Shown here one piece after another: positions 1,583-49,864 of a stretch of DNA of 64,000 bases. Source of the stretch: Acidisoma cellulosilyticum (lineage in GTDB: Bacteria; Pseudomonadota; Alphaproteobacteria; Acetobacterales; Acetobacteraceae); the NCBI RefSeq assembly GCF_020621385.1, contig NZ_JAESVA010000013.1:62001-126000 (forward strand). Direction: 5' to 3'. Position numbers and translations under genes: made by a program. The first letter of the stretch is position 1. Each line of letters starts with the position of its first letter. The notes beneath the pieces were generated by a model. The model searched no databases. It was not told the DNA's origin and worked only from the letters and a program-made list of their open reading frames with translations.

Positions 1583-1752
1583 TAGAGTCTGTCAGGTTTT
1601 AATAGATAATTTGTCATCCGCGCACTTGTTGCGCGGACCTACCCGCCGCGGCGCCCAGCCGGCCGATTGCTTGCTGCGTCGGGTAGATGCGCGGGTCGGG
1701 GCCCGCGCACGACAGATTTTTTGGCGTTTCCACCTAAACCTGACGGACTCTA
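1583..1752. repeat. MITE-like palindromic repeat E1 (fills the 1440-1749 gap)
   Basis: The ends are near-perfect inverted repeats: TAGAGTCTGTCAGGTTT at 1583-1599 and its complement, with one mismatch, at 1736-1752. The interior is itself palindromic, with CATCCGCGC/GCGCGGA stems and CTACCCG blocks on both arms. TA flanks both sides, consistent with a TA target duplication as made by IS630/Tc1-type transposases. No ORF of its own is credible. The right edge supplies the TAG stop of the SDR gene on the minus strand. The remaining gap (1440-1582) holds nothing I recognise. Related copies: 16662-16828, 25999-26160 (diverged), 48143-48315. Confidence 0.75.
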
Positions 1753-2493
1753 ACGCACGCCGCCAGCGGTGATGATGGTCTCACCCGACACCCAGCGGCT
1801 GTCATCGGATGCCAGGAAAACCGCGACCGGCGCGATATCCTGCGGCAGGCCGATGCGGCCGAGCGGCGTCTGCGCGACGACCGCATTGGCGAAATCGCTG
1901 CCGATGAAGCCCGCCGTATGCGTGCCTTCGGTCTCCACCAGGCCGGGGTTGATCGAATTCACGCGGATCTGCTTGGGCCCGAGTTCCTTGGCCAGCGTCG
2001 CGGTAATGACATCGACCGCGCCCTTGGTGGCGTTGTAGATGCTGCCGCCCGGGGGCGTGATGCGGCTGACGACGGAGCTGACATTGATCACGCTACCGCC
2101 CTCGGCCGGGAACTGCGCGACCGCCGCCTGGGTCGTGAGGATCAGGCCCAGCACATTGGTGTCGAACTGGCGATGGAACTCCGCCGCCGTCACATCGGCC
2201 AGCGGCACCATGGCATAGACGCCGGCATTATTGACCAGGACGTCGATCTTGCCGAAAGCCGCGACGGTTTCAGCGACGATCTTTGCCGATGCGTCGGCGA
2301 CGCTGCCTTGAACGGCGACGGCGCGGCCGCCCTTTTCGGTAATGGCGGCGACGGTCTTATCCGCGCCCGCCTTGTCGGAGGCGTAGTTGACGGCGACCGC
2401 CGCACCAGCCTCACCGAGCGCCAACGCGATCGCGGCGCCGATGCCTTTGGAGGCGCCCGTTACCAGTGCAACTTTTCCGGAAAGCTTGCTCAT
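1750..2493 (-). CDS. SDR family oxidoreductase (tandem copy 1)
   Basis: A 247-residue short-chain dehydrogenase, a classical NAD(P)(H)-dependent oxidoreductase. It shows the Rossmann motif TGASKGIG near residue 12, NNAG near 88, a catalytic Ser in the SSVVSR region, and Y-x-x-x-K as YNATK. It is about 79% identical (my count, 195/247) to the SDR gene immediately upstream, so the pair is a tandem duplication. Divergence is concentrated around residues 190-215, the substrate-binding loop, suggesting different substrates. The stop codon TAG coincides with the terminal bases of repeat E1, whereas the paralogue ends in TAA. The substrate is unknown. Confidence 0.9.
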   Translation of the reverse strand: MSKLSGKVALVTGASKGIGAAIALALGEAGAAVAVNYASDKAGADKTVAAITEKGGRAVAVQGSVADASAKIVAETVAAFGKIDVLVNNAGVYAMVPLADVTAAEFHRQFDTNVLGLILTTQAAVAQFPAEGGSVINVSSVVSRITPPGGSIYNATKGAVDVITATLAKELGPKQIRVNSINPGLVETEGTHTAGFIGSDFANAVVAQTPLGRIGLPQDIAPVAVFLASDDSRWVSGETIITAGGVR

Positions 2494-2616
2494 GGGAAAT
2501 CCCTATGGGTTTGAAGTGAGGTCTGTGTTCCGCTGCCTGACTGAGTGGCCAGCGGTCTGCACGCTAGCCCCACGCACGGCCGTATCGGCCCGCGCATGGG
2601 GAAGACGGAGGACGCC

Positions 2617-3360
2617 TTAGCGGAAACCGCCGGCGGTGATGATGGTCTCACCGCTGACCCAGCGGCTGTCGTCGGAGGCCAGAAATACCGCGACGGCTGC
2701 AATATCATCGGGCTGGCCGGTGCGGCCGAGCGGGGTTTGTGCCACCGCCATCGCCTCGAATTCGCCGTCGATCACACCGATCGCCCGCGCGCCTTCGGTG
2801 TTGACGACGCCCGGATTGATGGCATTCACGCGAATATGCTTCGGACCCAATTCCTTGGCCAGGGTCGCGGTGATGACATCGACCGCGCCCTTGGTGGCGC
2901 CGTAGACTACCGAGGCCGGCGGCGTGAAGCGGGAGACGACGGAGCTGATATTGGTCACGCTACCGCCCTGTTCCGGGAAATGCGCGACGGCTTCCTTGGT
3001 CGTCAGCAGCAGGCCGAGCACGTTGGTATTGAACTGGCGGTGGAAATCCTCCGCCGTGACCGCTTCCAACGGCGCGAAAGCATAGACGCCGGCATTATTG
3101 ACCAGGATGTCGATATGGCCGAACGCCGCGACCGTCTCGGCGACGATGCGCGCGGACGCATCCGCGACGCTGCCCTGAACGGCGACCGCGCGGCCGCCCT
3201 TCGCGGTAATGGCGGCGACGGCTCTATCCGCGCCGGCCTTGTCGGACGCGTAGTTGACGGCCACCGCCGCACCTTCTTCAGCCAAAGCCAGGGCAATCGC
3301 GGTGCCGATCCCCTTGGAAGCGCCTGTCACCAGCGCCACGCGTCCAGAAAGCTTGCTCAT
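2617..3360 (-). CDS. SDR family oxidoreductase (tandem copy 2)
   Basis: The second 247-residue SDR has the same layout: TGASKGIG cofactor loop, NNAG, SSVVSR and the YGATK catalytic pair. It is probably NADP(H)-dependent, given that the residues after the glycine loop match 3-oxoacyl-reductase-like SDRs; that is inference. It lies upstream of its duplicate with a 123-bp gap, so both may be read from the promoter region at 3361-3440, which contains a palindrome near the ArsR-type gene. The substrate is unknown. Confidence 0.9.
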   Translation of the reverse strand: MSKLSGRVALVTGASKGIGTAIALALAEEGAAVAVNYASDKAGADRAVAAITAKGGRAVAVQGSVADASARIVAETVAAFGHIDILVNNAGVYAFAPLEAVTAEDFHRQFNTNVLGLLLTTKEAVAHFPEQGGSVTNISSVVSRFTPPASVVYGATKGAVDVITATLAKELGPKHIRVNAINPGVVNTEGARAIGVIDGEFEAMAVAQTPLGRTGQPDDIAAVAVFLASDDSRWVSGETIITAGGFR

Positions 3361-3390
3361 GGAAAACCTCTGATGAAATTAATTTCGACA

Positions 3391-3408
3391 ATTAGATAAC
3401 TGTCTAAT
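3391..3408. promoter_or_regulatory. Palindromic site upstream of the SDR pair (candidate ArsR operator)
   Basis: An inverted repeat ATTAGA-N6-TCTAAT lies in an AT-rich patch between the ArsR-type gene and the SDR genes, about 30 bp before the SDR start codon. Size and AT content fit a winged-helix dimer site. That it is bound by the neighbouring regulator is inference. Confidence 0.5.
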
Positions 3409-3443
3409 AATTGGCGCCAGTGAGGCTGGCGCAGGGCAGAGCG

Positions 3444-3740
3444 TCAGATTTCGGATAGGCGCTTCAGATAGGCGGACAGGACCTCGCGCTGCAAGGTCAG
3501 ATTGGCGAATTTGCCCTCGCGCACGATCTCGATCAGCCCAGCGTTCTCCAACTCCTTCATATGATGGGAGATGGTGGCCGCGCTGACCTCATGACATTGG
3601 GAGAGAGAGCTACAGGACACAGTGCCTTCCTGCTCCCCCAGCATCTTCAGCATCTGATAGCGCCTGGGTTCGGCCAAGGCCCGGGCGATCAGGGAGAATT
3701 GTCGGTCTGAGATGCTGAAAAGCGTCGTGTCGTCGGCCAT
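3444..3740 (-). CDS. ArsR-type winged-helix transcriptional regulator
   Basis: A 98-residue protein made of one ArsR/SmtB-like winged-helix domain. It has the typical [11 protein letters not shown] start, a recognition helix around SAATISHHM, and the wing segment [10 protein letters not shown]. The classical metal-binding ELCVCDL motif is absent; two Cys/Ser-rich positions (VSCSSLSQC) occur where it would be, so it may sense something other than metals. It is co-directional with the SDR pair and lies upstream of them, and probably controls them through the ATTAGA palindrome. Confidence 0.85.
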
Positions 3741-3794
3741 GATGTCGTCAATCCCGCGTCGGGCGAAGGGGGGAGCCTTGTGCTCCCCACAAGC

Positions 3795-6700
3795 TTATAC
3801 GGAGAAATACTTCGCATGCGCGTTCAAAACCACAAGCGCACTGGTGGATTGCTCAGGATGCAACTGCCATTCGTCCGAGAGCGAGACGCCGATGCGCTCG
3901 GCGTCCAGCAGCTTCATGATCGGCGCCTGATCCTCCAGCTTGGGGCAGGCGGGATAGCCGAAGGAATAGCGTGACCCGCGATAGCCCTGGCCGAGCATCT
4001 TTTCCATCTCACGCTCATCCTCGCCGGCGAAGCCAAGCTCGGCGCGGATGCGCTTATGGGTATATTCGGCCATCGCCTCGGCCATCTCCACCGAAAGGCC
4101 ATGGAGATAGAGGTAATCCTGGTAGCGGTTGCCCTCGAACCATTCGCGGGCAAGGTCCGACGCCTTCTGGCCGACTGTCACGACCTGCAGGCCGATGACG
4201 TCGCGCTCGGCGTCATCCACGTCCCGGAAGAAGTCCGCGATGCATTCGCCGTCCTCGCGCGGCTGGCGGGGCAGGGCGAAGCGGCAAAGCTCGGTCTGTC
4301 CGTCCTCGGCGAAGATGATGAGGTCGTTGCCCTGGCCGGCGGCCTTCCAATAGCCGTAGCTCGCCTGCGGCTTCAGAATATCCTGCTCCTCCGTCAGGGT
4401 CAGCATACGGCGCATGATCGGCCGCAGCTCCTGCTTGGCCCAGCCGAGGAAGTCTTCCAGCGTCCGGCCCTGTTTCCGGAAACCCCATTGAAACTGATAC
4501 AGGCTGCGCTCGTTCAGGAAGGGCACCACCGCCTTGGGCGTTGCCTCCACAACCCGCGCGCCCCAGAAGGGCGGCGTGATGACGGGCTGGTCCTGCGTCA
4601 GACGGCGGCGGCGGGCCTGGGTGGCGCCGATATCGACCGGCTGGAAGGCTTTCACATCGGCCTGACCCAGCGTGCGGCTGGTATTGCGGGCCTTGCCCGC
4701 GCGCTTGGTCTGGATGGCGGCGGCGTAATCGTCAAACCCGCTGCTGGTCACCTTTTCCATCAGCGACAGGCCGTCGAAGGCATCGCGTGCATAGGCAACG
4801 CGACCGGAGGCATAGGCGCGGACGCAGTCGTCTTCCACGAAGTTGCGCGTCAATGCCGCACCACCGAGCAGGATCGGCACATCCAGCCCCTGGCGCGTCA
4901 ACTCCTCCAGATTGTCCTTCATCACGACGGTCGATTTCACCAGCAGGCCGGACATGCCGATGGCATGCGCGCGGTTGTCCTTCACGGCGGTAATCATGTC
5001 GGCCAGCGGCACCTTGATGCCGAGATTGATGACCCGGTAACCGTTATTGGTGAGGATGATATCGACAAGATTCTTGCCGATATCATGCACGTCGCCCTTC
5101 ACGGTCGCCAGAACGATGGTGCCTTTCTCCTGACCCTCGATCTTTTCCATATGCGGTTCAAGATAAGCGACGGCGGCCTTCATGGTCTCGGCACTTTGCA
5201 GCACGAAGGGCAGCTGCATTTTGCCGGCACCGAACAGCTCCCCCACCACCTTCATACCGTCGAGCAGAATGGTATTGATGATGTCGATCGGCGCATGCGT
5301 CTGCATCGCTTCCGCCAGATCCTCGTCCAGCCCCTTGCGGTCACCGTCGACGATGCGGTCCTTCAGCCGTCCTTCGACCGTCTCGGCGCGCTGCTTGGCA
5401 CCGACATCGGCCAGCTTCCGGTCAGCGAAAATCTCCAGCAGCTTCTGCAGCGGATCATAGCCGTCGCGGCGACGGTCGAAGATAAGGTCTTCGGCGACCG
5501 CCACTTCCTCGGCCGGAATCAGATGCAGCGGGCGGATTTTGCTGACATGGACGATGGCGCCCGTCATGCCCGCACGCAGCGCATGGTCCAGAAAGACCGA
5601 GTTCAGCACGGCGCGCGCGGCGGGGTTCAGGCCGAAGCTGATATTGGACAGGCCCAGAATGATCTGGATATCGGGGAAGGCCTCGCGGATGGCTTTGATG
5701 CCTTCCAGCGTCCATTGGCCCAGCTTGCGGTCATCCTCATTGCCGGTGGCAATGGTGAAGGTCAGCGGATCGATCAACAGATCGGATTGCGGCAACCCGT
5801 GCTTGTCGCAGGCGAATTCCACCAGCCGGCGCGCGATGCGCAGCTTGTCCTCCGCCGTCTTCGCCATGCCGGCTTCGTCGATCGTCAGCGCCACCATGGC
5901 CGTGCCGAACTTCTTCGCCAGGATCATGCGATCCTCGGCCGGCTTCTCGCCGTCCTCGAAATTGATCGAGTTGATGATCGGCTTGCCGCCATGCAGCTTC
6001 AGCGCGGATTCCAGCACCACGCGCTCGGTGCTGTCGATGACCAGCGGCGCGTTCACGCTGCTGGTGAAGCGGCGCACGACCTCGTTCATCTCAAACACTT
6101 CATCGCGCCCGACGAAAGCCGTGCAGATGTCGAGCGCGTTGGAGCCTTCGCCCATCTGCTCGCGACCCATGCCGACGCAACCGTCCCAATCCTGCGCTTC
6201 CTGCAATTGGCGCCATTTCTTGGAGCCGTTGGCATTGCAACGCTCGCCGATGGAGAAATAGCTGTTCTCCTGCCGCAGGCTCGTCTGGCCGTACAGACCC
6301 GCGACGGAGGGAATCCAGACCGGCTTGCGCAGCACGGGGGCGGGGCGAATGAGCGAGCCGGCCCGGCGGCGGAGCATGGCGTCGAGGGCTGCGATATGCG
6401 GCGTGGATGTGCCGCAGCAGCCGCCGATCAGGTTCAGCCCGTCTTCGGCGATATAACGCTCAACCCAGCTCGCCATTTCCGCCGCACCCAGCGGATAATG
6501 CGTCTGGCCGTTGACCAGTTCCGGCAGGCCGGCATTGGGCTGGACCGAGATGAAGCCGCGCCAATTGGCCGAAAGCCAGCGGATATGCTCGGCCATTTCC
6601 TGCGGGCCGGTGGCGCAGTTCAGGCCCATCAGCGGTACGTCCAGCGCGTCGATCACCGTGGCTGCCGCGGCGATATCGGGCCCCACCAGCAGGGTGCCGG

Positions 6701-7289
6701 TGGTCTCCACCGTCACTTGCACAAAGATCGGCGTGCTGCTGCCGGCTTCGGCGCGGGCGATTTTGGCGGCGTTGACGGCGGCCTTGATCTGCAGCGTGTC
6801 CTGGCAGGTCTCGATCAGGATGGCATCGACCCCGCCAGCGATCAGCCCGCGCGCCTGCACGGCGAGACCCGCTTCCAGCGGGTCATAGGCGATATTGCCG
6901 AGCGTCGGCAGTTTGGTGCCGGGACCGACCGAGCCCACGACGTAGCGGTGCCGGCCGTCCGAGAAGCTGTCGGCGGCCTCGCGCGCCAGTTCGGCCGCGA
7001 TCTTGTTGATCTCGAAGGCGCGGTCTTCCAGCTCGAACTCGGCCAGCGTAATCGGGCTGCCGCCGAAGGTATTGGTTTCCACCATATCGGCGCCGGCCTC
7101 GAAATAGCCGCGATGGATTTCGCGCACCATGTCGGGGCGGGAGAGGTTCAGCACTTCCGTGCAATTCTCCCGGTTCCAGAAGTCCTTTTCGATATCGAGC
7201 GTCAGCGCCTGGACACGGCTGCCCATGCCGCCGTCGCACAGCAGAACCTGGTCGCGCAGGGCGTCGAGAAGATGCGGGCGGCTGCTCAT
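3795..7289 (-). CDS. metH: Cobalamin-dependent methionine synthase
   Basis: MetH (1164 residues; E. coli 1227) transfers a methyl group from 5-methyl-THF to homocysteine through cobalamin. All modules are present in order. The homocysteine domain carries zinc ligands C225, C291 and C292 (GLNC, GGCCG). A pterin-binding domain covers about 340-600. The cap and B12 domains include DVHDIG at 733-738 (H735 as lower axial ligand). The C-terminal reactivation domain ends in YGYPACP-like SAM-binding sequence. It is complete. The ATG overlaps the stop of the upstream ArsR-methyltransferase gene by four bases (ATGA), so the two form an operon. No metF is adjacent. Confidence 0.97.
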   Translation of the reverse strand: MSSRPHLLDALRDQVLLCDGGMGSRVQALTLDIEKDFWNRENCTEVLNLSRPDMVREIHRGYFEAGADMVETNTFGGSPITLAEFELEDRAFEINKIAAELAREAADSFSDGRHRYVVGSVGPGTKLPTLGNIAYDPLEAGLAVQARGLIAGGVDAILIETCQDTLQIKAAVNAAKIARAEAGSSTPIFVQVTVETTGTLLVGPDIAAAATVIDALDVPLMGLNCATGPQEMAEHIRWLSANWRGFISVQPNAGLPELVNGQTHYPLGAAEMASWVERYIAEDGLNLIGGCCGTSTPHIAALDAMLRRRAGSLIRPAPVLRKPVWIPSVAGLYGQTSLRQENSYFSIGERCNANGSKKWRQLQEAQDWDGCVGMGREQMGEGSNALDICTAFVGRDEVFEMNEVVRRFTSSVNAPLVIDSTERVVLESALKLHGGKPIINSINFEDGEKPAEDRMILAKKFGTAMVALTIDEAGMAKTAEDKLRIARRLVEFACDKHGLPQSDLLIDPLTFTIATGNEDDRKLGQWTLEGIKAIREAFPDIQIILGLSNISFGLNPAARAVLNSVFLDHALRAGMTGAIVHVSKIRPLHLIPAEEVAVAEDLIFDRRRDGYDPLQKLLEIFADRKLADVGAKQRAETVEGRLKDRIVDGDRKGLDEDLAEAMQTHAPIDIINTILLDGMKVVGELFGAGKMQLPFVLQSAETMKAAVAYLEPHMEKIEGQEKGTIVLATVKGDVHDIGKNLVDIILTNNGYRVINLGIKVPLADMITAVKDNRAHAIGMSGLLVKSTVVMKDNLEELTRQGLDVPILLGGAALTRNFVEDDCVRAYASGRVAYARDAFDGLSLMEKVTSSGFDDYAAAIQTKRAGKARNTSRTLGQADVKAFQPVDIGATQARRRRLTQDQPVITPPFWGARVVEATPKAVVPFLNERSLYQFQWGFRKQGRTLEDFLGWAKQELRPIMRRMLTLTEEQDILKPQASYGYWKAAGQGNDLIIFAEDGQTELCRFALPRQPREDGECIADFFRDVDDAERDVIGLQVVTVGQKASDLAREWFEGNRYQDYLYLHGLSVEMAEAMAEYTHKRIRAELGFAGEDEREMEKMLGQGYRGSRYSFGYPACPKLEDQAPIMKLLDAERIGVSLSDEWQLHPEQSTSALVVLNAHAKYFSV

Positions 7290-8284: not shown

Positions 8285-8295
8285 AACTTGAATAT

Positions 8296-8315: not shown

Positions 8316-8322
8316 CTATCGC

Positions 8323-9158: not shown

Positions 9159-9213
9159 CCGGCGGATTCCTCGAAATTGGTTGAAGGTGCCAGCGGTACG
9201 GTGTCGTCCTCTG

Positions 9214-12444: not shown

Positions 12445-12609
12445 AGAGCCTGTTTTGTAATGCGCTACAGCGCGCGAGAGGCGCCGCAGGCGCTGGCCGC
12501 CGTGGTTTTTGAGAACCGGAGCGGAGCGGCCGTTGAGGGCCGTGAGCACCGGAAGCGCAAAAAGGCGCGCCGGATCGCCGCTGTAGTAGCATTTCCAAGC
12601 AGGCTCTTA
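12445..12609. repeat. Palindromic repeat E5 inside the operon
   Basis: Both ends carry an imperfect inverted repeat: AGAGCCTGTTTTGTAATGC from 12445, and AGAGCCTGCTTGGAAATGC read inward from 12607 on the minus strand. CTACAGCG follows on both arms. The interior is palindrome-rich (GAACCGGAGCGGAGCGGCC). No ORF. The right edge forms the TAA stop of the glutamine-synthetase-like gene, and the left edge lies four bases from the nitrilase start codon. The termini differ from the E1 family, so it is a separate repeat type. Confidence 0.6.
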
Positions 12610-14781: not shown

Positions 14782-14991
14782 ATGACCATTGGAACTGTTA
14801 AATTCTTCAATACGACCAAGGGCTTCGGTTTCATTCAGCCGGATAACGGCAGCCCGGACGTGTTCGTCCATATTTCTGCCGTCGAGCGTGCCGGTCTGTC
14901 CTCGATCAACGAGGGCCAGAAGCTGAGCTTCGATGCGGTGAAGAACGACCGTAACGGCAAGCTTGCCGCCGAGAATCTTAAGGCAGCCTGA
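14782..14991 (+). CDS. Cold-shock protein, CspA family
   Basis: A 69-residue single cold-shock domain that binds single-stranded RNA/DNA and acts as an RNA chaperone. RNP1 (KGFGFI) and RNP2 (VFVHIS) are both intact, with the starting strand GTVKFFN. The ribosome site GAAAGGAAGA precedes the ATG. A good intrinsic terminator follows, so it is monocistronic. The long AT-rich leader suggests post-transcriptional cold control, which is inference. Confidence 0.95.
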
Positions 14992-15059
14992 CCAAGATAG
15001 CGTTTTGGACTGCTGACCACGGATGTACTGGCAGTCGGTCCTGAAACGCTGAGAAGAAG

Positions 15060-15082
15060 GCCGGGTTCTCCCGGCTTTTTTT
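15060..15082 (+). terminator. Intrinsic terminator after the cold-shock gene
   Basis: A perfect 6-bp stem GCCGGG/CCCGGC with a four-base loop is followed directly by seven T residues. Confidence 0.85.
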
Positions 15083-15168
15083 GTTTTGGGCCTGCTATGA
15101 TAGCATCAGCAGCCCCAGGATCGTTTTGCGTAAAGCATCTGCGGTAACGCCAGACAGGACAAGCAAAT

Positions 15169-15443: not shown

Positions 15444-16307
15444 GTGGTCAGACTGAACATTCGCCATCGGACGACCTATCACTACAACAGGAACGTCAGC
15501 TTGAGGCCGCACCGCCTTATGCTGCGCCCTCGCGAAAGCCGTGAGCTGCGCCTGCTCGGGATGGAGATTATCGTCAATCCGGACGCGGTCCTGACATGGG
15601 CGCAGGATGTCGCCGGCAATAGCGTGGCGAGCCTGACCTTTCGGTCAATGACCAATCAATTGGTGATAGAAAGTATCGCCGATATCGAGCTTGATGCCGT
15701 CGTCTGGCCCGTTTTCGATATTTCGGCATCCGCCATTTTTTATCCATTTCACTACACTGATGATGATCAGGCGGATCTTGGCCTTTTGGCCAGTCCAAGG
15801 CTTGCCGATGCCGCTGGCAAACTGCGGGCCTGGGTCAGCGCTTTCGTTCGCACCGATCCGACGGACACGCTTGCGCTGCTCAAAGACATCAATTTCGGCA
15901 TCCTCTCCTGGATTTCCTATCAGGAGCGCGATGACGAAGGCACCCAGTCTCCGGTCGAAACGCTTGAGCGTGGATGGGGCGCCTGTCGCGATCTGGCGCT
16001 GCTCTTCGTCGAGGCCGTGCGGACGCTCGGCTTCGGGGCGCGGATCGTGTCGGGCTATCTCCATAATCCGAGCCAGGAGATCAAGGGTTCCGCCGGAGCG
16101 GGGACAACCCATGCCTGGGCGGAGGTCTATCTTCCCGGCGCCGGTTGGATCACCTTTGACCCGACAAACCGCAGCATGGGGGGTGCGAACCTCATCCCCG
16201 TCGCGGTTGGTCGTGACATCCGGCAAGTGATGCCCGTCATCGGCGAATTCATCGGCTTGAGCGATGCGTTTTCCCATATGACGGTCGAGGTCTGCGTCAT
16301 CGGGTAG
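15444..16307 (+). CDS. Transglutaminase-like cysteine protease family protein
   Basis: A 287-residue protein with GTG start and ribosome site AGGGAGAG. The N-terminal bacterial transglutaminase-like beta domain spans about 1-95 (RHRTTYHYNRNVSLRPHRL). The core domain has catalytic C181 (GWGACRDLA), H223 (THAWAEVY) and D239 (TFDPTN) in the right spacing. There is no signal peptide, so it is cytoplasmic. Bacterial members are peptidases or amidases of unknown substrate. Often they sit beside alpha-E/circularly-permuted ATP-grasp genes, which are absent here. Confidence 0.9.
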   Translation: MVRLNIRHRTTYHYNRNVSLRPHRLMLRPRESRELRLLGMEIIVNPDAVLTWAQDVAGNSVASLTFRSMTNQLVIESIADIELDAVVWPVFDISASAIFYPFHYTDDDQADLGLLASPRLADAAGKLRAWVSAFVRTDPTDTLALLKDINFGILSWISYQERDDEGTQSPVETLERGWGACRDLALLFVEAVRTLGFGARIVSGYLHNPSQEIKGSAGAGTTHAWAEVYLPGAGWITFDPTNRSMGGANLIPVAVGRDIRQVMPVIGEFIGLSDAFSHMTVEVCVIG

Positions 16308-16385: not shown

Positions 16386-16664
16386 ATGATTAAGACGCAG
16401 CGGGACAGTTTCAGTCCCAAACTCCCATCCTGGTACGGTGCCAGCCGCATCTACGACCGAGGGCGGATGATCCTCGATTATTTGTGGGACAATGGATACG
16501 AGCCCGACAAGCAATCGCCGTTCAAAGCCAAGACCCTTGTCAATAAGGATATGGCGATCCTGATGGCGGCGCTTGAGGCGGGCCAGGAGTCCGAGGTCCG
16601 CGCGGCGGTTACCAAGCATTTGAACTATCTGACCGTCCAGCAGCTGGCGGAAACCAGTCGTTAG
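16386..16664 (+). CDS. Hypothetical protein
   Basis: 92 residues, not recognised. It is rich in charged residues with probable helices (DMAILMAALEAGQESEVRAAVTKHL) and an N-terminal PSWYGASRIYDRGRMILDYLWDNGY. No signal or membrane segment. It begins 78 bp after the transglutaminase gene on the same strand. The final codons are AGT CGT TAG; the TAG is the left terminus of repeat E2, and the same CAGTCGTTAGA string recurs at the repeat's right end. Confidence 0.55.
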   Translation: MIKTQRDSFSPKLPSWYGASRIYDRGRMILDYLWDNGYEPDKQSPFKAKTLVNKDMAILMAALEAGQESEVRAAVTKHLNYLTVQQLAETSR

Positions 16665-16828
16665 AGTTTGTCAGGTTTTAATAGAAATCCCGTCATCCGC
16701 GCACGCGTTGCGCGGAACTACCCGTGGTGGCGCCGGCCGGCCGCTTGCCTGAACGCATGGGTAAACCCGCGGAACAAGTCCGCGGGCGACGGATTTTTGG
16801 GCGTTTCAGTAAAATCTCACAGTCGTTA
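16662..16828. repeat. MITE-like palindromic repeat E2
   Basis: The left end TAGAGTTTGTCAGGTTTTAA matches E1's left end closely. The interior repeats the GTCATCCGCGCA...TGCGCGGA and CTACCCG blocks. The right end is degenerate (14 of 21 positions pair with the left). An 11-bp direct repeat CAGTCGTTAGA (16655-16665 and 16820-16830) brackets it. Either the target duplication is longer than TA, or the right end has been rearranged. Confidence 0.65.
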
Positions 16829-17141
16829 GACTGAGATCACCATCGGACAAGCCAGCACCACCAGACCAGATCAGAGCCGCTGATAAAGGCCAGGGCTGCG
16901 CGCCATTTCAGGCGTGCGAAGGGGGATAGCTTCATCTTGCTGACGATTCTGTTCCCGCAGCATTCGATACTGCGGCATTACGGCGGTATCGTCTGATTAG
17001 CACATAAAGATCGTCGGGCGTGTAACGAATGCGCGCTGTTTTGCGGCACCAGGTGCCGCTGACTGGTTTTACCGGATCACGTGCCGAGCCTGCGGAGACG
17101 GACCGGTCCGCGCAGCAGCTGCGCGGATGGCTTCGTCTTTC
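16829..17141. other. Gene-free stretch with palindromes and an E-repeat remnant
   Basis: No coding sequence seen. At 17043-17059 there is a compact palindrome GCGGCACC-a-GGTGCCGC. At about 17100-17141 the minus strand reads CATCCGCGCA...TGCGCGGACC, the same core block as repeats E1 and E2, and it abuts the TAA stop of the idonate dehydrogenase gene. I read it as a decayed or partial copy. Confidence 0.45.
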
Positions 17142-24981: not shown

Positions 24982-26001
24982 TTGCCGGCTTATTCAGACG
25001 TGAAGGGCGAGGTCGTCCTTCTGACCACGGGCGGGACCATCGCGTCTCGCCATGATGCGGCGGCGGACGCCTTTGTCGCGGCCATCGGCGCGGATGACAT
25101 GGCGGCGCTGGTGCAAGGCGTGCCGCCGGGTGTCACGCTGCGTGCGGAGGCCTTCTGCAACGTCAATAGTTTCCGCATGGACTTGCCGACCGCTTTCGGG
25201 TTGGCGCAGCGCATCGCGGCTGTGCTGGCTGAGCCGAGCGTGCTGGGCGTGGTCGTGACCCACGGCACGGATACCATGGAGGAAAGCGCCTTCCTTGTCG
25301 GTCTGACGGTGCCGGCCGACAAGCCCGTGGTTTTCACCGGCGCGCAGCGCAATGCGGAGGAGGCCGATACGGACGGTCCCCGCAATCTGACCGAGGCGGT
25401 ACAGCTGGCGGCCTCCCCACTCGCACGCGACATCGGCACCGTCATCCTGTTCGACGGGGTTTTTCATGCCGCGCGGGATGTTCGCAAGACGCATACATCT
25501 CGGCCCGGGACCTTCAATTCCGCCGATCACGGCAAACTGGGTCTGGTCGATGAAGGCGCGGTGCGGCTGTATCGCCGCCCGGCGGACCTTTGCCTTCTCC
25601 CGGCTCAGCGGGTGGAGCCTGCGGTCGCGCTGATCAAGATGGCCATGGGTATGGATGACAGCTTCATGCGCTGGGCGATGGCGAACGGCACGCGTGGCTT
25701 CGTGCTGGAAGCCTTCGGGCTTGGCAATTGCCCGCCTGCTTTTGTGCAGGCAACACAAGATGCCGTGGCGAAGGGCATTCCTGTCCTCATCACCTCGCGC
25801 TGCGGGGAAGGGCGGGTGAAGCCCGTCTATGGCAATGGCGGTGGGGTTGATCTGGCAAAGGCCGGGGCGATTTTCGCGGGCGACCTGACAGGGCAGAAAG
25901 CGCGCATTCTGCTCTCTGTCCTGCTGGGTGACGTCGGGCCGCTGGACAGCGTCGCAGCGCGCGCGGCCTTCGCAGAGGCTGTCGCGCGCGTGGCCGACTA
26001 A
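24982..26001 (+). CDS. L-asparaginase family protein
   Basis: 339 residues. The start is TTG at 24982, supported by an AGGAG ribosome site seven bases upstream. Both active-site threonine motifs are present: LLTTGGTIASR near residue 14 and VVTHGTDTMEESAF near 95, with a Lys about 75 residues later as expected. It hydrolyses asparagine (possibly glutamine) to aspartate and ammonia. No signal peptide, so it is the cytoplasmic type. The TAA stop at 25999-26001 coincides with the left edge of repeat E4. Confidence 0.9.
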   Translation: MPAYSDVKGEVVLLTTGGTIASRHDAAADAFVAAIGADDMAALVQGVPPGVTLRAEAFCNVNSFRMDLPTAFGLAQRIAAVLAEPSVLGVVVTHGTDTMEESAFLVGLTVPADKPVVFTGAQRNAEEADTDGPRNLTEAVQLAASPLARDIGTVILFDGVFHAARDVRKTHTSRPGTFNSADHGKLGLVDEGAVRLYRRPADLCLLPAQRVEPAVALIKMAMGMDDSFMRWAMANGTRGFVLEAFGLGNCPPAFVQATQDAVAKGIPVLITSRCGEGRVKPVYGNGGGVDLAKAGAIFAGDLTGQKARILLSVLLGDVGPLDSVAARAAFAEAVARVAD

Positions 26002-26160
26002 AAGCTCAGAATGGAATCGCCCCAAGTCTGTCGTGCGCGGACCTGTTCCGCGCATCCACCCGCCGCGGCGTCCCAACAGCGTCAGGGCGCCCAAGCGGGT
26101 CGTTCCGCGCAACGACTGCGCGGATGACGCGGTGTGGTCGGCACAGACTATGACAGCTTA
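25999..26160. repeat. Palindromic repeat E4 between two convergent genes
   Basis: The 162-bp element lies exactly between the stop codon of the asparaginase gene (+) and the stop codon of the cupin gene (-). Read from the right edge on the minus strand, it contains GTCATCCGCGCA...TGCGCGGA followed by GACCCG, the core of family E1. It is diverged, and its termini are only loosely inverted. TA is present at both borders. If TA is the target duplication, the original sequence was GACTAGAAC, in which the two convergent stop codons shared one CTAG. Confidence 0.6.
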
Positions 26161-41757: not shown

Positions 41758-41784
41758 GTCAGAGCGCCTGAAACAGCGCCGGGA

Positions 41785-43509: not shown

Positions 43510-43729
43510 AGCAGCCTCCGTCGTGGCGCGGCCTATCGGGCCGTTGAGTCACGACGGCGTGTTGCCGTCGTTTTTAAAGATTGCTTAATCCTGCTGGGCA
43601 GGAATCCGCCCTAACGCACTAATGGAAGACGAAGTTTCGCGCAACATGAACCAGCATCGACCAAGGGCTGGCATGGCGGAAAGATTGCGAATAATGCAAA
43701 AAGCTGAGCCGAGCGGCAACGAGGATGCC

Positions 43730-44128
43730 ATGATCACAATTTCGCGCAGTTTAAGGGCCGGTGTGTTTGGCGTCGGATTTGCTGTCCCGATCCTCGGGGT
43801 GCTCGCCGGTTGCGCCGCACCTGCGCCAAGGGTCCTATCCACTGAGCCTGAGGCCGCCGTCGCCGGCAGGATCGATGCGACGATCATCGCCATTCGGCCT
43901 GTGCCCCCGGCCGCCCCGCAAGGCGGCGGCGCCGTGCTGGCGGCCATGGGAACGCAGAATGGTGGGGGGGCGAGCGAGACGGAAATCATCGTCCGTACCG
44001 ATCAAGGGAATGTGCTCTCCGTCGTTCAGACCGATGTCACGGGCCTTGCGGCGGGCGCGCGGGTCGTCGTGCTCACCAGCCCGCGTCTGCGGATAGCCCG
44101 GCCGGGCTATGCTACGCCGGTGAGCTGA
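43730..44128 (+). CDS. SlyB/Pcp-like outer-membrane lipoprotein
   Basis: 132 residues from the ATG at 43730 (GAGGA upstream). The signal ends in lipobox VLAGC, so it is a lipoprotein. The mature part contains GRIDATIIAIRPVP, a Gly-rich stretch, TEIIVRTDQGNVLSVVQTDVTGLAAGARVVVL and RIARP. The IVVRTDxGxxxSVVQ pattern is typical of the glycine-zipper SlyB/Pcp family. It is shorter than SlyB (155) and lacks a clear glycine zipper. Function: outer-membrane integrity, by family. Confidence 0.7.
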   Translation: MITISRSLRAGVFGVGFAVPILGVLAGCAAPAPRVLSTEPEAAVAGRIDATIIAIRPVPPAAPQGGGAVLAAMGTQNGGGASETEIIVRTDQGNVLSVVQTDVTGLAAGARVVVLTSPRLRIARPGYATPVS

Positions 44129-44226
44129 GCGGCGCGCGATATCCGGGCCGCCGCCCAAGGGTCGCGCGGCTCGCATGTGAGAGCGCGGTTGCAGCGGCCG
44201 GTCGGATCGGCTATCGGCCCCGACAT

Positions 44227-45102
44227 ATGAACGCCATTTCGGATCCTCAGACTTTGATCCCAGCGGAAGCCGACCAGGGCTTTGCCGTGGACCTTCGCCA
44301 CGGCCTCGGGCTTCGTGCGCGCAATACCATGGCTTTTCAGGACGTGGTGCGCGGGATCGGCCTTTGGCGCCTCGCGCTGATGCTGAGCTGGCTCGATATT
44401 CGCCTGCGCTATCGCGGTTCGGTTCTGGGCCCGTTCTGGTTGACGCTGTCCACGGCGGTGATGGTGGGCGCGCTCGGCTTCGTCTACGCCTATCTGTTCA
44501 AGACGCCGATCCACACTTATCTGCCGTTCCTGGCACTGTCGCTGACGCTATGGAGTTTTCTGTCCTCCATGGTGAGTGACGGCTCGGTCGTCTTCACCCA
44601 GGCCGAGGGCATGATCCGCTCCATGCGGGTGCCGTTTTCCCTTTATATCTATCAGCTGCTGGCGCGAAACGTGCTGATTTTCGCCCATAATGTCATCGTC
44701 ATCGTGGTCGTGTTCATCGCCTTCGATTCACCTGTCAGCTGGTCCGATTTCGCGGCGATCCCGGCGCTGGTCTTGTGGTTGATCGACGGTGCGGCGGTCG
44801 CGCTGATGCTGGGCGCGGTCTGTGCCCGCTTCCGCGATATTCCGCCCATCGTCAGCAGCGTCATGCAGATTGCCTTCTATGTCTCGGGCATCATGTTCAA
44901 GCCGGACATGCTGGGCCATCGCAGCATCTATCTGCTCTACGATCCCTTCTATTCCATCGTGGAAGTCCTGCGCGCACCACTGCTGGGCCACCTGCCGTCG
45001 CAGATGACCTATGTCAGCGCCTTGGGCTTTTCCGCGGTGCTTTGCCTGCTCGGCTGGTTTGTATTCCTGCGCGTGCGGCACCGCATCGCTTTCTGGGTGT
45101 GA
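44227..45102 (+). CDS. Polysaccharide ABC exporter permease (Wzm/ABC2 type)
   Basis: 291 residues with six hydrophobic segments. The N-terminal cytoplasmic part leads into WLDIRLRYRGSVLGPFWLTLSTAVMVGALGFVYAYLFKT, the family hallmark of O-antigen/teichoic or capsule exporters. The next genes are its ATPase and accA. It moves a lipid-linked glycan across the inner membrane. Which glycan is unclear; no O-antigen biosynthesis cluster is adjacent, but glycosyltransferase genes lie 1-5 kb downstream. Confidence 0.88.
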   Translation: MNAISDPQTLIPAEADQGFAVDLRHGLGLRARNTMAFQDVVRGIGLWRLALMLSWLDIRLRYRGSVLGPFWLTLSTAVMVGALGFVYAYLFKTPIHTYLPFLALSLTLWSFLSSMVSDGSVVFTQAEGMIRSMRVPFSLYIYQLLARNVLIFAHNVIVIVVVFIAFDSPVSWSDFAAIPALVLWLIDGAAVALMLGAVCARFRDIPPIVSSVMQIAFYVSGIMFKPDMLGHRSIYLLYDPFYSIVEVLRAPLLGHLPSQMTYVSALGFSAVLCLLGWFVFLRVRHRIAFWV

Positions 45103-45106
45103 CGAC

Positions 45107-45895
45107 ATGGCAGCGCGCATCGAGGTCGAAGACCTCCGGATCGATTTTCCCCTCTATCACGGCCAATCCCGCAGTCTGAAGCGCAGCATCCTGGCGCATG
45201 CCACGGGCAAGCGACGCCTGCAGGAAAATGAGAAGCATCGCCTGGTGGTGGAGGCATTGCGCGCCATCAGCTTCACGCTGCAACCGGGCGAGCGGCTCGC
45301 TTTGGTCGGCCATAACGGTGCTGGCAAGACGACGCTGCTGCGGGCCCTGGCCGGCGTCTACGAGCCTGTCGCGGGTAGCGTGCGAATCCAGGGTTCGCTG
45401 AACGCGCTGCTGGATCCTAATCAGGGGATGAACCCTGAATTGACGGGGCGGGAGAATGTGGCGCTCAGGGGCCGCTATCATCGCATGAATCGCGAGGCCG
45501 TGGAGGCTTTGCAGGAAGACGTGCGCAGCTTCGCCGAACTCGGCGACTTCTTCGACCTGCCGACCCGCATCTATAGTTCCGGCATGATCATCCGCCTGGC
45601 TTTCGCCATGGCGACGGCCATTCGCCCGCAGGTGCTGCTGATGGACGAATGGTTCCTGGCCGGCGACGCTGCCTTCCGCGAGAAGGCGCGCGAGCGTTTG
45701 GAGACCATGGTGCGCGGCGCCGATATCCTGGTCCTGTCCACCCATCTGAACGATATCGTGCGCTCCTGGTGCACGCGCGTGATCTGGCTGGAAGACGGTC
45801 GGGTGCGCATGGATGGGGCGGTCGATGAGGTCATGGAGGTCTTTGCCGGCAAGATCGATACGCCGGCTCTGTTCCCCGAAGCCGTCGCCAGCTAA
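45107..45895 (+). CDS. Polysaccharide ABC exporter ATPase (Wzt type)
   Basis: 262 residues from the ATG at 45107, four bases after the permease stop; an earlier in-frame start lies inside the permease gene. Walker A GHNGAGKTT, the short RIYSSGMIIRLAFAMAT signature (YSSGM rather than LSGGQ, as in Wzt/KpsT), Walker B VLLMDEWFLAGD. It lacks the long C-terminal carbohydrate-binding domain of some Wzt proteins, so export probably does not depend on a terminal-residue recognition domain. Confidence 0.88.
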   Translation: MAARIEVEDLRIDFPLYHGQSRSLKRSILAHATGKRRLQENEKHRLVVEALRAISFTLQPGERLALVGHNGAGKTTLLRALAGVYEPVAGSVRIQGSLNALLDPNQGMNPELTGRENVALRGRYHRMNREAVEALQEDVRSFAELGDFFDLPTRIYSSGMIIRLAFAMATAIRPQVLLMDEWFLAGDAAFREKARERLETMVRGADILVLSTHLNDIVRSWCTRVIWLEDGRVRMDGAVDEVMEVFAGKIDTPALFPEAVAS

Positions 45896-45985
45896 CCGCC
45901 TGAGAGCGAAGCCCGCGGCAAGGTCCGACGGCTTCTCTGCGCGTCAAGCCCTTGCCCCTTGAGAAAATTCCGCTAAGCACAGCCC

Positions 45986-46942
45986 ATGCGTCATTTCCTG
46001 GATTTCGAGAAGCCCCTCGCCGAACTCGAGAATAAGATCGAGGAGCTGCGGCGGATGCCCGGCCCCGAAGGTCTCAGCATCGCCGATGAGGTTACCCGCC
46101 TGTCGGAAAAGGCCGACCGCCAGCTGCGCACGCTTTATGCGAAGCTGACGCCTTGGCAGAAAACCCTGGTCGCGCGGCATCCGGACAGGCCCCGCGCGCT
46201 GTCCTATATCGACCAGCTGATCACGGAATACACGCCGCTCGGCGGTGACCGCGCCTTCGCGGAGGACGCGGCGATCGTGGGTGGCCTCGGCCGCTTCTAC
46301 GGCCATGCCGTCATGGTGCTGGGCACCGAGAAGGGCACGGATACGGAAAGCCGTATCAAGCATAATTTCGGCAGCGCCCGCCCGGAAGGCTATCGCAAGG
46401 TCAAGCGCCTGATCGAAATGGCCGGACATTTCCGCCTGCCGATCCTGAGCTTCATCGACACCTCCGGCGCCTATCCTGGCGTCGATGCCGAAGCGCGGGG
46501 CCAGGCCGAAGCCATTGCGCGGGCGATCGAGGCAGGGCTGGCCGCGCCGGTGCCCTTTATCGCGACGGTGATCGGCGAGGGCGGATCGGGTGGTGCCATC
46601 GCGCTCGGGGCTGCGGACCGCGTGCTGATGCTGGAACATTCGATCTATTCCGTCATTTCCCCAGAAGGCTGCGCATCGATCCTGTGGCGTGACGCCGCCG
46701 CCGCCCCTATGGCGGCCGAGGCCCTGAAGCTGACGGCGGACGACCTGCGCCGGTTCGACCTGATCGACGGGGTTATCCCCGAGCCCCTGGGCGGCGCGCA
46801 TCGCGCCCCTGCGGAGACGATGACGGCGGTGGGTGAGGCGATCAACGCGGCGCTTTCGCCCTTGTTGAGCCAGACGCCCGAGGCGCTGAAGGCACGCCGG
46901 CGCGAGAAATTCCTCGCCATGGGCCGCGAGGGCCTGGCCTAA
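45986..46942 (+). CDS. accA: Acetyl-CoA carboxylase carboxyltransferase subunit alpha
   Basis: 318 residues (E. coli 319). Carboxyltransferase fold with N-terminal helical part MRHFLDFEKPLAELENKI. Family blocks: PRALSYIDQL, GGDRAFAEDAAIVGGLGRF, GSARPEGYRKVKRLIEMA, FIDTSGAYPGVDAEARGQAEAIARAI, IGEGGSGGAIALG, YSVISPEGCASILWRD. It joins AccD to transfer the carboxyl group to acetyl-CoA in fatty-acid synthesis. The gene stands alone here; accD is elsewhere. Confidence 0.97.
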   Translation: MRHFLDFEKPLAELENKIEELRRMPGPEGLSIADEVTRLSEKADRQLRTLYAKLTPWQKTLVARHPDRPRALSYIDQLITEYTPLGGDRAFAEDAAIVGGLGRFYGHAVMVLGTEKGTDTESRIKHNFGSARPEGYRKVKRLIEMAGHFRLPILSFIDTSGAYPGVDAEARGQAEAIARAIEAGLAAPVPFIATVIGEGGSGGAIALGAADRVLMLEHSIYSVISPEGCASILWRDAAAAPMAAEALKLTADDLRRFDLIDGVIPEPLGGAHRAPAETMTAVGEAINAALSPLLSQTPEALKARRREKFLAMGREGLA

Positions 46943-47012
46943 GCTTGCCAATTCATGAGTGAGGCGGCGGCGTCATGAGCCGCTGACGGCTTTGGGGCGA
47001 AGGAGCGTGCGA

Positions 47013-48041
47013 ATGCCGATTGCCGCCGTCACCTGCGTGCGCGACGAGGGCGATATCATCGAGGAATGGCTGGCCCATCACCTCGCCCTCGGCTTCGATC
47101 GTATCCATATTTTCGACAATGGCAGCGAAGACGCGACGCGCGCCAAGATCAACGCCGTCGCGGCCCGAAATCCGGATGTGACCGTGCAGTCCTGGCAACC
47201 CGCCTCAGGCGAGCCGCAGAAGGCTGCGTTCGAGGCGGGGCTTGCGCGGATGCGCGCCGAGGATGTCGATTGGTGCGCCTTTCTCGACGCCGACGAATTC
47301 ATCGTCAATGCGGCGGCCGATCCGCAATCGCCAGCGGGCCGGGAAAGCCTGGCCGATTTTCTGGCGCGCCATGAGGCCCATGCCGCGATCGGTCTGAATT
47401 GGGCGATTTTCGGCAGTTCAGGACAAGAGCAGCGACCGTCCGGCCTGATGCAGGAAGCGTTTTTGCGCCGGGCCGAGGACGGTTTCACGGTCAACCGGCA
47501 CATCAAATCCATCGTGCGGCCGCGTTTCGCCAAGGGCGTGCATCATGTGCACGGCTTCGCGCTGGATCATCCCTATTACAATGCCGAAGGGGAAGAGATC
47601 GTCTGGCGCACATCGGAACATGGCGGCGCGGTGCAGCCCTTCGCCTATACCGAGAATTTCCCGAGCCTGACCGGTTGGCGCATCAACCATTATTTCTGCC
47701 GCTGGCGTGGCCGGTGGGACGAGAAGGTGCGTCTCTCCCGGCTGCGGGACGTGTTCTGGCGCTCGGAACAGGATTGGCAACACCACGACCGCAACGAGGT
47801 TTATGACGCGACGGCGCTTCGCTGGGTACCTCAGGTGCGCGCTCAGATGGTGGAACTCGGCATCATCAAGCCGCTTTCTGACCCGGCACCGACGCCGATC
47901 GCAGTCCCGACCACAGTCGCTGCTCCGACGCCAGCGCCAGCCCAGGCCGCAGTCGTGGCACCGGCACCGACGTCAGTCGTATCGCCGGCACCTGCCAGCC
48001 CTCCGGCCCGGATTCACGCGTCGCGGGATACCAGGATCTAG
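47013..48041 (+). CDS. Glycosyltransferase family 2-type protein (GT92/Glyco_tranf_2_4-like)
   Basis: 342 residues from the ATG at 47013, with AAGGAG upstream; an earlier in-frame start adds residues that do not look like the family. The GT-A fold begins IAAVTCVRDEGDIIEEWLAHHLALGFDRIHIFDNGS. The metal motif is FLDADEFI. Later blocks HIKSIVRPRFA, HHVHGFALD and INHYFCRW are typical of this subfamily. The final ~55 residues form a Pro/Ala/Val-rich tail of unknown role. The stop TAG at 48039-48041 is the left end of repeat R1. Confidence 0.82.
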   Translation: MPIAAVTCVRDEGDIIEEWLAHHLALGFDRIHIFDNGSEDATRAKINAVAARNPDVTVQSWQPASGEPQKAAFEAGLARMRAEDVDWCAFLDADEFIVNAAADPQSPAGRESLADFLARHEAHAAIGLNWAIFGSSGQEQRPSGLMQEAFLRRAEDGFTVNRHIKSIVRPRFAKGVHHVHGFALDHPYYNAEGEEIVWRTSEHGGAVQPFAYTENFPSLTGWRINHYFCRWRGRWDEKVRLSRLRDVFWRSEQDWQHHDRNEVYDATALRWVPQVRAQMVELGIIKPLSDPAPTPIAVPTTVAAPTPAPAQAAVVAPAPTSVVSPAPASPPARIHASRDTRI

Positions 48042-48144
48042 AGCGTTTCCTGCTCGCTTACGCTCACAGACGCCGCTCTAGATTATTGTTTTTGCGAGCA
48101 TCTTCACCCGGACAGATGATTCCATCTGACCGGGATCTGCTCTA
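48039..48144. repeat. Short interspersed repeat R1
   Basis: 106 bp bounded by TAGAGC and GCTCTA, with an internal GCTCTA, and containing a hairpin CCGGACAGATG/CATCTGACCGG (one A-A mismatch). Its twin R2 at 49760-49864 is nearly identical, and in R2 the hairpin is fully paired (CCGGCCAGAT/ATCTGGCCGG), a compensatory change. R1 supplies the stop codon of the upstream glycosyltransferase and shares its right-hand TA with repeat E3. Confidence 0.8.
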
Positions 48145-48315
48145 GGGGCTGTCGGGTTTTGATCGGAAGCCTCCCCAGAAAAATCTGTCGCCCGCGGCCT
48201 TGTGCCGCGGGTCTACCCGTTCAGGCGCCCAGACGCCGATGTGGCGCCGCGACGGGTAGGTGCGCGGCACAAGGCCGCGGATGACGAGTCTTCTACACAA
48301 ACCTGACAGACCCAA
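48143..48315. repeat. MITE-like palindromic repeat E3
   Basis: Starts TAGGGGCTGTCGGGTTTT and ends AAACCTGACAGACCC. Read in reverse, it aligns along its length with E1: TCTGTCAGGTTT, GTCATCCGCGG...CCGCGCACCTACCCG, GGGCGCC, CTACCC blocks. It is inserted directly against R1. R1 and E3 together fill the 302-bp gap between the two glycosyltransferase genes. Confidence 0.7.
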
Positions 48316-48343
48316 GACCCCTTAGCATTCGGTCGGCGCGGGT

Positions 48344-49726
48344 TCAGCCTGTCTTCCCGGCATCTGCCGCCGGCAGCGAGTGATGCCGCAACACACGGTC
48401 AAGATAGTCGCGCATGACCTGCGGTCGGCCGGCCCGAGCGACACCCCAGAAATGCACGAGCCCGGTCAGCGGGCCGATGGGGATTTGCGGGCCCTCGAAA
48501 CCCCAGCGCACATATTTGGAAACCTCGTGCGTTTCGAAATGGGCGATTTTGTAGGAGACGTAGTTGGCGGCCTCCTGGTCGACCCATTGCAAAGCGCTGC
48601 GCCCGCGCTGGCCGAGGATATTGCAGATCACGCGACGAATGAGCTTCAGATGGTGCAACTGGCTGGGGATATTGGGAATGCCGATGGTCCCGCAATTGAA
48701 GCCGCTCGCGAAGCGCGGCAATTCATGATCAAGCTGCAGCAGTGTGGCCCCCACTGAGGGCGCATGCTCCAATCCGGAAAAGACTTCGATCGGCGCCGTC
48801 AGTTTGTCCGATACGGCCATCGCGATCAGCATGGCCTGAATATCGGCATTATAGATGATGTCCGGATCCATATAGATGACCGGCTGATAATGATGGGCGT
48901 CGTCATCTTCAAGAATGCAATATTTACCGGCAACAAACCCGACCCAGTCATTGGGGCGGAGAGGTTTGACGGTAAACCGGTCGCGCGGCACCCAGGGCAT
49001 CTCGGCGCGGATGCTGGCCAAGTCCCGGTCCGAATAGACCCAGACCTGACCTTTATAATGCCCGACGGCGCCGAGAGAGACCAGGCTCAGGGACAGTTGT
49101 TGAAAGACGTTATCCTCGCCGAAGGCGAGATAATAGATCATCGGCTTGAAGAGCAGGATCTCGTTGACCTTCCATCCTTCCGACAGGACCGTAAAGCGGA
49201 AGGGCGCATGCTTTTGATCGAAGGGGAGATTGTAATTAAGCGGGATGGCAAGATGTCCGATATGGAGATTGAACTTTTCCCCGAATGTGATTGTTTCCGG
49301 ATTGATCAGCGATCTCGTCGATTTGACGATCCATTGCTCTGCCAGCAGGCGCTGTAGAAAATCAAGGTCCTCGTCCGAGCAGGGCAGGAAATGCTCCCAG
49401 TCCTTGACCTCGGTCCGATTGATTTCGACGGTCCCGCCGGGCGGCGCGCTGGCGAAGGATCCGTTCCGGGCGATGGCGACGGTGCGGCTTGCCGGATAGG
49501 GATAAATCTCGCATGGACCGAGGAATTTTACGTCCGCCTCCGTCGGGAGGCTCGCCTTCTGTTCGATGAAATCAACGAAAGGCTGGCGGAAGGTATCGGG
49601 GTCAAGGTCAACGGAGACCAGTTCCTCCCGATCGCGGATCTGACCGACAGAAAGATGCGTTATGCCTGTGCGATCGGCCGTGCGAGCCATCAGAGCGCCA
49701 TGGTATGAGATAAGATAGAACCGCAT
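48344..49726 (-). CDS. Putative glycosyltransferase of GT-A fold
   Basis: 460 residues. The C-terminal half has LLFKPMIYYLAF, a VIYMDPDIIYNADI segment containing a DxD metal motif, a substrate-like block LPRFASGFNCGTIGIPN, and WVDQEAANY. These are features of GT8/GT-A enzymes that copy sugars from nucleotide donors. The N-terminal 160 residues (MRFYLISYHGALMARTAD...) are not recognised. No signal or membrane segment, so it is cytoplasmic. GGAGA precedes the ATG. It lies between repeats and convergent to the GT2-type gene. Confidence 0.6.
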   Translation of the reverse strand: MRFYLISYHGALMARTADRTGITHLSVGQIRDREELVSVDLDPDTFRQPFVDFIEQKASLPTEADVKFLGPCEIYPYPASRTVAIARNGSFASAPPGGTVEINRTEVKDWEHFLPCSDEDLDFLQRLLAEQWIVKSTRSLINPETITFGEKFNLHIGHLAIPLNYNLPFDQKHAPFRFTVLSEGWKVNEILLFKPMIYYLAFGEDNVFQQLSLSLVSLGAVGHYKGQVWVYSDRDLASIRAEMPWVPRDRFTVKPLRPNDWVGFVAGKYCILEDDDAHHYQPVIYMDPDIIYNADIQAMLIAMAVSDKLTAPIEVFSGLEHAPSVGATLLQLDHELPRFASGFNCGTIGIPNIPSQLHHLKLIRRVICNILGQRGRSALQWVDQEAANYVSYKIAHFETHEVSKYVRWGFEGPQIPIGPLTGLVHFWGVARAGRPQVMRDYLDRVLRHHSLPAADAGKTG

Positions 49727-49759
49727 TGGACGTCTCCGGTCTCGTTCGCAGGTGGTATC

Positions 49760-49864
49760 TAGAGCGTTTCCTGTTCGCTACGCTCACAGGTGCCGCTCTA
49801 GATTATTGTTTTTGCGAGCATCTTCACCCGGCCAGATGATTTTATCTGGCCGGGATCTGCTCTA
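49760..49864. repeat. Short interspersed repeat R2
   Basis: Near-copy of R1: same 5' TAGAGCGTTTCCTG and same 3' GGGATCTGCTCTA, same internal TAGATTATTGTTTTTGCGAGCATCTT portion, with the hairpin CCGGCCAGAT/ATCTGGCCGG. It sits 33 bp upstream of the 460-residue gene's start and ends at the stop codon (TAG, minus strand) of the next gene. Confidence 0.8.

Follow-up and report, generated by a model that had tools for sequence, protein, structure and literature searches.

Short TA-bounded palindromic elements at gene stop codons in Acidisoma cellulosilyticum and other genera

Two families of short palindromic repeats, here termed E and R, end exactly at gene stop codons in a 64,000-nucleotide stretch of the Acidisoma cellulosilyticum genome (contig NZ_JAESVA010000013.1, positions 62,001 to 126,000, hereafter the window; C13:62001-126000 of a 6.0-Mb genome in 59 contigs). 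Both families are bounded by TA, lie at C-TA-R targets (the last base being G or A) and coincide with stop codons well above background. The same coincidence recurs in two other genera, and for one insertion in another genus, empty sites are present in congeners.

We propose that E and R would be miniature, non-autonomous elements of the IS630/Tc1-mariner type, which a transposase would insert at the TA of C-TA-G or C-TA-A under duplication of the TA. With GAG as their first bases, insertion into a TAG or TAA stop codon would leave TA followed by G, i.e., an in-frame TAG facing the gene, and the protein would be unchanged. Because the CTAG target is palindromic, a single insertion can rebuild the stop codons of two convergent genes. 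Insertions within coding sequences, promoters or operons would be lost by selection, so that stop codons and convergent spacers would fill up. We put the probability of this account as a whole, comprising miniature elements of the IS630 type, the C-TA-R target, stop restoration and selective loss elsewhere, at roughly 0.84.

Elements E and R and the gene ends at their edges

E measures approximately 106 bp from TA to TA (most copies 105-106 bp) and has 79 core matches in the genome. R measures approximately 161-198 bp, with at least 41 genomic matches including the copy at 1583-1752 (40 of 205 candidates scored). Neither carries a gene; both are short, multi-copy and without transposase. In a listing of the ends, most copies of either family show TA at both termini, followed inward by GAG. 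Folding yields two hairpins for E (z -4.1 and -8.1 for the two window copies) and one large structure for R (z -7.0). In its make-up, E resembles a pair of units that meet at a TA, and single-unit short forms of 67 and 68 bp occur at two loci in other genera. Some R copies share one TA with an E copy, i.e., an element inserted at the edge of another element. In the window, neither E nor R matched an Rfam model at the gathering score.

An earlier note, made from the letters of the window, had claimed that several gene ends coincide to the base with repeat ends. This is confirmed for four gene ends at exact E or R edges: 1750-1752, 16662-16664, 48039-48041 and 49862-49864. The stop codon at 12607-12609 belongs, as the note had it, to a different repeat. 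The elements and stop codons are as follows (coordinates of the window):

1583-1752, unstranded: R element, 170 bp with both flanking TAs; ends TA-GAGTCTGTCAGG and TA-GAGTCCGTCAGG, the same as in most copies
1750-1752, minus strand: TAG stop of the SDR gene 1750-2493, consisting of TA and the first base of the R copy 1583-1752; the orthologue in the same-genus genome G004 has the same last residue and TAA
16305-16307, plus strand: TAG stop of a transglutaminase open reading frame (ORF), edge sequence TAGAGCTGTCAGG; missed by the earlier note
16662-16664, plus strand: TAG stop of the 65-amino-acid ORF 16467-16664, at the left R edge; G004 orthologue with the same last residue and TGA
16662-16830, unstranded, right limit approximate: R element, left end intact, right end decayed
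25999-26160, unstranded: palindromic R-core stretch flanked by two TAA stops; outer ends not common to other listed copies
48039-48041, plus strand: the glycosyltransferase gene 47013-48041 ends here in TAG, on the left edge of E; G004 orthologue with the same last residue and TGA
48039-48144, plus strand: E element, 106 bp with both TAs; two sub-hairpins
48143-48315, unstranded: R-like element, degenerate, with one TA in common with the first E, namely the right-hand one of that E (nested or tandem insertion); ends TAGGGGCTGTCGGG and CTGACAGACCCAA
49760-49864, plus strand: second E element, 105 bp with both TAs
49862-49864, minus strand: the GT61-family gene 49862-50923 ends here in TAG, on the right edge of E 49760-49864; the relatives compared offered no usable orthologue

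The palindromic stretch at 25999-26160 is a weaker case. TAA stops (25999-26001 and 26158-26160) do lie at its two ends, as the earlier note described, but these outer ends do not represent an end common to a family: among the matches listed, its relatives in the genome align only within positions ~14-151 of 162, most of them within 14-131, which corresponds to the R core. Since its ends are not shared, the stretch was left out of the counts below. The TAGAGCTGTCAGG edge at 16305-16307 is perhaps that of a further, degenerate element and is listed as a candidate only.

The SDR genes 1750-2493 and 2617-3360 are tandem duplicates (79-82% identical over three aligned stretches), and the R element lies at the stop codon of the first copy only. 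In the window, five of nine TAG stops are followed by AG[CT], against 0 of 37 in G001-G004. As a separate observation, TAA stops at 3795, 19245, 26158 and 45986 are followed by GCT (TAAGCT...), perhaps the ends of another element family.

Target site and enrichment at stop codons

The base preceding the TA is C in 75-88% of copies and the base following it G or A in ~95-100%, depending on family and class (E read in element orientation, R in contig orientation). These preferences are alike at stops and between genes, and no wider consensus was found over 8 bases per side. C-TA-G or C-TA-A context was present in 81 of 85 intact copies. The idea of TA-bounded elements left by insertion of the IS630/Tc1 type holds for the ends, with the amendment that the target is C-TA-[G/A] and not any TA. 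In some copies, one edge reads CTAG and the opposite edge CTAA; in others, the first TA is preceded by T. Such copies agree with a duplication of two bases (the TA) and do not fit one of four.

To reconstruct each pre-insertion site, the left flank, one TA and the right flank were joined. Genes were called by a script trained on codon usage in the window rather than by a published gene finder. Of 128 places (83 E and 45 R, some spurious), 85 copies passed a filter that asked for good ends, a TA on either side and a flank of 300 bp; after adding loci, the set comprised 95 intact copies (50 E, 45 R). Among the 95 rebuilt sites, 54 fell in a called stop codon (26 E, 28 R), 38 in spacers and none solely in coding sequence, with three unplaced. 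The 85-copy set gave 49 stops (two also overlapping a call on the opposite strand), 36 intergenic sites and again none solely coding; the expectation, derived from non-coding TA sites of matched context in these element-rich loci, was 8.2 ± 2.7 stops. With genus relatives as background, 46 of 78 element insertions (59%) were at stops, against 37 of 167 (22%) non-coding C-TA-R sites of genus relatives. The enrichment above background for which the earlier note had called is borne out.

As the gene calls came from a window-trained script, a frame test independent of any caller was added. Over 190 element edges, frames open for 100 codons that reached the edge numbered 75 for the TAG frame and 20 and 18 for the other two; the control, 462 edges from 231 C-TA-R sites of relatives with coding sites included, gave 119, 92 and 75. 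One edge may score in more than one frame in these counts.

The coincidence was replicated in two other genera. At least one gene stop lies at an element edge in nine of ten G015 loci and in all ten G020 loci, 19 of 20 overall. Reconstruction with both TAs was possible for seven of these loci and not for the other 13; all seven are at stops of convergent genes. Ten of 21 named loci likewise have a gene stop at an element edge (L249, L253, L256, L259, L260, L263, L264, L266, L267 and L268), of which five are from Roseomonas sp. KE0001 and partly the same places as in the G020 set. All of these loci, G015, G020 and named, were picked by element match and are thus uninformative on how many stops lack elements. 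In Neoroseomonas loci selected on other grounds, TAG is followed by AG[CT] in 5 of 29 TAG stops. Further R copies with edges at gene stops were seen at L148, L149, L152 and L154; at L154, both convergent neighbours terminate at the two R edges.

How much of the bias follows from harmlessness alone? One reading, close to the earlier note's alternative of a chance preference for intergenic TA, is that stops are not special and elements simply persist wherever a C-TA-R site is harmless. In its favour, of 88 C-TA-R insertions, divergent and tandem spacers hold just 2 and 21, while convergent spacers are well used (13), and stops already make up the ~22% of non-coding C-TA-R sites given above. The observed 59% exceeds this value, and an excess of stops was left after stratification by orientation. 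Between convergent genes, 34 stop and 13 spacer insertions stand against 13 and 14 background sites; between tandem genes, the numbers are 14 and 21 against 29 and 102 (p just under 0.05 for either group of pairs alone). The pooled odds ratio for stop versus spacer was 2.5 (p 0.005) with relatives and window as background, and 5.9 (p 6e-9) with the genome's own masked loci, the two backgrounds differing by a factor of two. Neutrality therefore accounts for a good part of the stop bias and not for all of it, with a 2.5- to 5.9-fold excess left. Together with the excess in the TAG frame, this disfavours a general preference for neutral DNA as the full explanation, which we regard as rather unlikely.

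The residual excess could instead reflect active choice: a C-TA-R at a stop codon would be preferred over equal sites nearby, either by the transposition complex itself or through a link of this complex with transcription or translation. The stop excess within both convergent and tandem pairs points in this direction, as do the seven rebuilt sites in G015 and G020, all of them at stops. Each stratum alone is, however, barely significant against the relatives (p 0.047 or 0.049 per stratum), no wider consensus separates stop from spacer insertions, and selection on terminators just past the stop codon could yield the same residual excess. To our knowledge, there is no biochemical reason for a transposition complex to choose stop codons. 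We consider active choice unlikely; selection rather than target choice is probably behind most of the bias.

Returning to stop restoration with selective loss elsewhere, the earlier note had spoken of an insertion strategy neutral for the host gene. That the protein is unchanged agrees with this wording; the word strategy goes beyond the data, as the loss of harmful insertions explains part of the pattern. A bolder version, which we offer tentatively, would see the GAG first bases as an adaptation: C-TA-R stops, chiefly the shared CTAG of convergent pairs, might serve as safe harbours for the spread of the families, the C-TA-G left at insertion edges might be reused by later elements, and an active preference for stops might possibly help. 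If the main account is true, a gene-dense genome would have been colonised without harm to the host, the element's own end repairing the damage. Stop usage and 3' ends in these genomes would then be shaped by mobile DNA, and the signature of a TAG stop followed by AGC or AGT could be read off genomes. In dozens of genes, a strong hairpin would directly follow the stop codon and may change the end of the transcript.

Empty sites and orthologous gene ends

Restoration of a stop codon by TA duplication, as proposed in the earlier note, predicts empty sites with a single TA within a stop codon. Such sites were found for an insertion in Neoroseomonas terrae. At its locus L260, an E element (767-870) lies between the genes 377-769 (plus strand) and 868-2385 (minus strand), both of which end in TAG at the element edges. 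In three congeners (L271, L272 and L276 from G370, G139 and G266; genus label g118), the same gene pair is present without the element, and the two genes overlap by 4 bp at CTAG. The smaller gene measures 393 nt in all four loci; the larger one is 1518 nt long in L260, L271 and L272, and 1512 nt in L276. Three further g118 loci (L269, L270 and L291) matched only one gene of the pair.

For a second insertion, in N. soli (L253 and L319 denote the same DNA), one of five congeners (L320) shows an empty TAG at the codon in question. In another congener (G318, L323), the TAG at the stop codon that holds the E element in N. soli is followed by another hairpin of the TAGAGC type (L323:2807-2830), and three of the five end elsewhere. 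This empty TAG is weaker support than the N. terrae sites. The Gluconobacter locus L254 was dropped as a source of empty sites, its genes not ending at the element.

Several observations weigh against stop restoration as a complete account. At the N. terrae site, the genes of L273, L274 and L275 (g118) do not overlap and have TGA. In N. soli, the TA is preceded by G rather than C, and the site was not rebuilt, since another repeat adjoins it on the far side. For the window's own insertions, no empty TAG was found among the relatives compared. Six of the seven window genes ending at repeats (12607 included) have an orthologue in G004 with the same last residue, and these six show TGA at that codon in five cases and TAA in one; they include the two genes at the weak 25999-26160 stretch and the one at the other repeat (12607). 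At L199, the last residue is conserved in four of six close congeners, each time with TGA, and the other two run on; at L266, TGA occupies that codon in 3 of 13 congeners, and ten end elsewhere or run on. The TGA codons can be the result of stop-codon turnover; of 13 window genes that end in TAA or TAG but carry none of these repeats, 6 show TGA in G004. Still, the TGA orthologues leave room for another route at those sites.

One such route would turn TGA stops into TAG by a junction without a TA target, e.g., by stop replacement. The TGA found in most comparable orthologues of the window genes and of L199 and L266 is in line with it. On the other hand, nearly every copy has G or A on the outer side of the far TA, as a TAG or TAA target needs, and the real empty sites carry TAG at three loci and, more weakly, at one more. 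We therefore hold this route to be very unlikely.

Candidate transposase and comparison with known elements

PF13358 (DDE_3) matches above the cut-off were present on contigs C26, C29 and C31, with two separate pieces on C26. The C26 pieces belong to an IS630-family element (L135, 255 to ~2664) with the ends TAGAGCGTTTCCTGTT and TAGAGCGTTTCATGTT, and the C31 copy has the same first end. Compared with these ends, the left end of E is identical over 14 bases for the first copy of the window and over 16 for the second. For the TA-targeting transposase with matching ends that the earlier note had suggested looking for, this element is a candidate as far as the left end of E is concerned. Other features argue less well for the link: the right end of E shares only TAGAGC with the IS630 ends, and the R end TAGAGTCTGTCAGGTT matches TAGAGCGTTTCCTGTT partially only. 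A search for an autonomous partner of R in eight stretches around R ends gave none, distant pairs being separate R copies. Moreover, the IS630 copies seen are interrupted or partial; the C26 copy is split by a second transposase-like ORF (L135:1297-2430), perhaps IS110-like. The left edge of the C26 element coincides with the TAG of a short lipoprotein-like frame, a suggestive observation only with regard to insertion at stops. From the similarity of the ends, the IS630 transposase may move E, one end of which matches well, and possibly R, whose ends match in part.

IS870 of Agrobacterium vitis needs a CTAG target to complete the stop codon of its own ORF. It resembles E and R in the CTAG target and in a stop codon made at the junction; in IS870, however, the element's own gene gains a stop, whereas with E and R the host genes keep theirs. 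Tenzen and Ohtsubo reportedly described, in 1991, a CTAG preference of IS630 from Shigella sonnei. IS5 duplicates four bases on insertion, which counts against movement of E and R by an IS5-type rather than an IS630-type transposase. The target tetramers are the same, since IS5 also uses CTAG and CTAA sites according to PMC11677980. In E and R, a single copy often has edges that are unlike outside the TA, and the matching ends belong to the DDE_3 element (IS5-type transposases in the genome were not searched for). Taken together, an IS5-type origin appears most improbable.

In the IS630 family (Tc1/mariner/IS630), e.g., ISY100, the TA target is duplicated on insertion (PMC2170065, in extract). 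E and R share this duplication, and this genome holds a DDE_3 element with a matching end; unlike the family, they carry no gene, and a stop bias is absent from the IS630 descriptions in the extract. A similar miniature element is RUP of Streptococcus pneumoniae, which is tied to IS630-Spn1: according to the partial text of PMC2229807, it is 107 bp long, inserts at TA, is present in 108 copies and has ends resembling an IS630 element. Size and TA insertion are common to RUP and E, which resembles an IS630 element at its left end, while sequence and host differ and no stop placement is described for RUP in that text. MITEPsy1 of Pseudomonas syringae (100 bp) inserts at CTAG or YTAA and duplicates four bases, unlike the two duplicated by E and R; its ends are like those of ISPsy2, whose family is given as 'IS5?', and the excerpt of PMC3189936 describes no stop placement for it. 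We found no description of a stop-restoring insertion bias in the open-licence literature, judged by titles and abstract starts, and in the open texts searched the stop bias of E and R is apparently undescribed.

Finally, capture of stops, by which an element inserted inside or just past a gene would shorten or lengthen it to the edge TAG, is rejected: although this TAG would in one of three frames terminate any incoming gene, the filled sequence of the 85-copy set has 53 gene ends at an edge and one within an element, rebuilt sites are never solely coding, and, wherever a comparison was possible, orthologues keep the last residue, with some relatives running on.

Apart from the elements, positions 14948-15085 of the window match the alphaproteobacterial small RNA ar35 in Rfam (61.5 bits; gathering score 45), and short GC-rich repeats lie at 61099-61370 inside the called gene 60978-62072.

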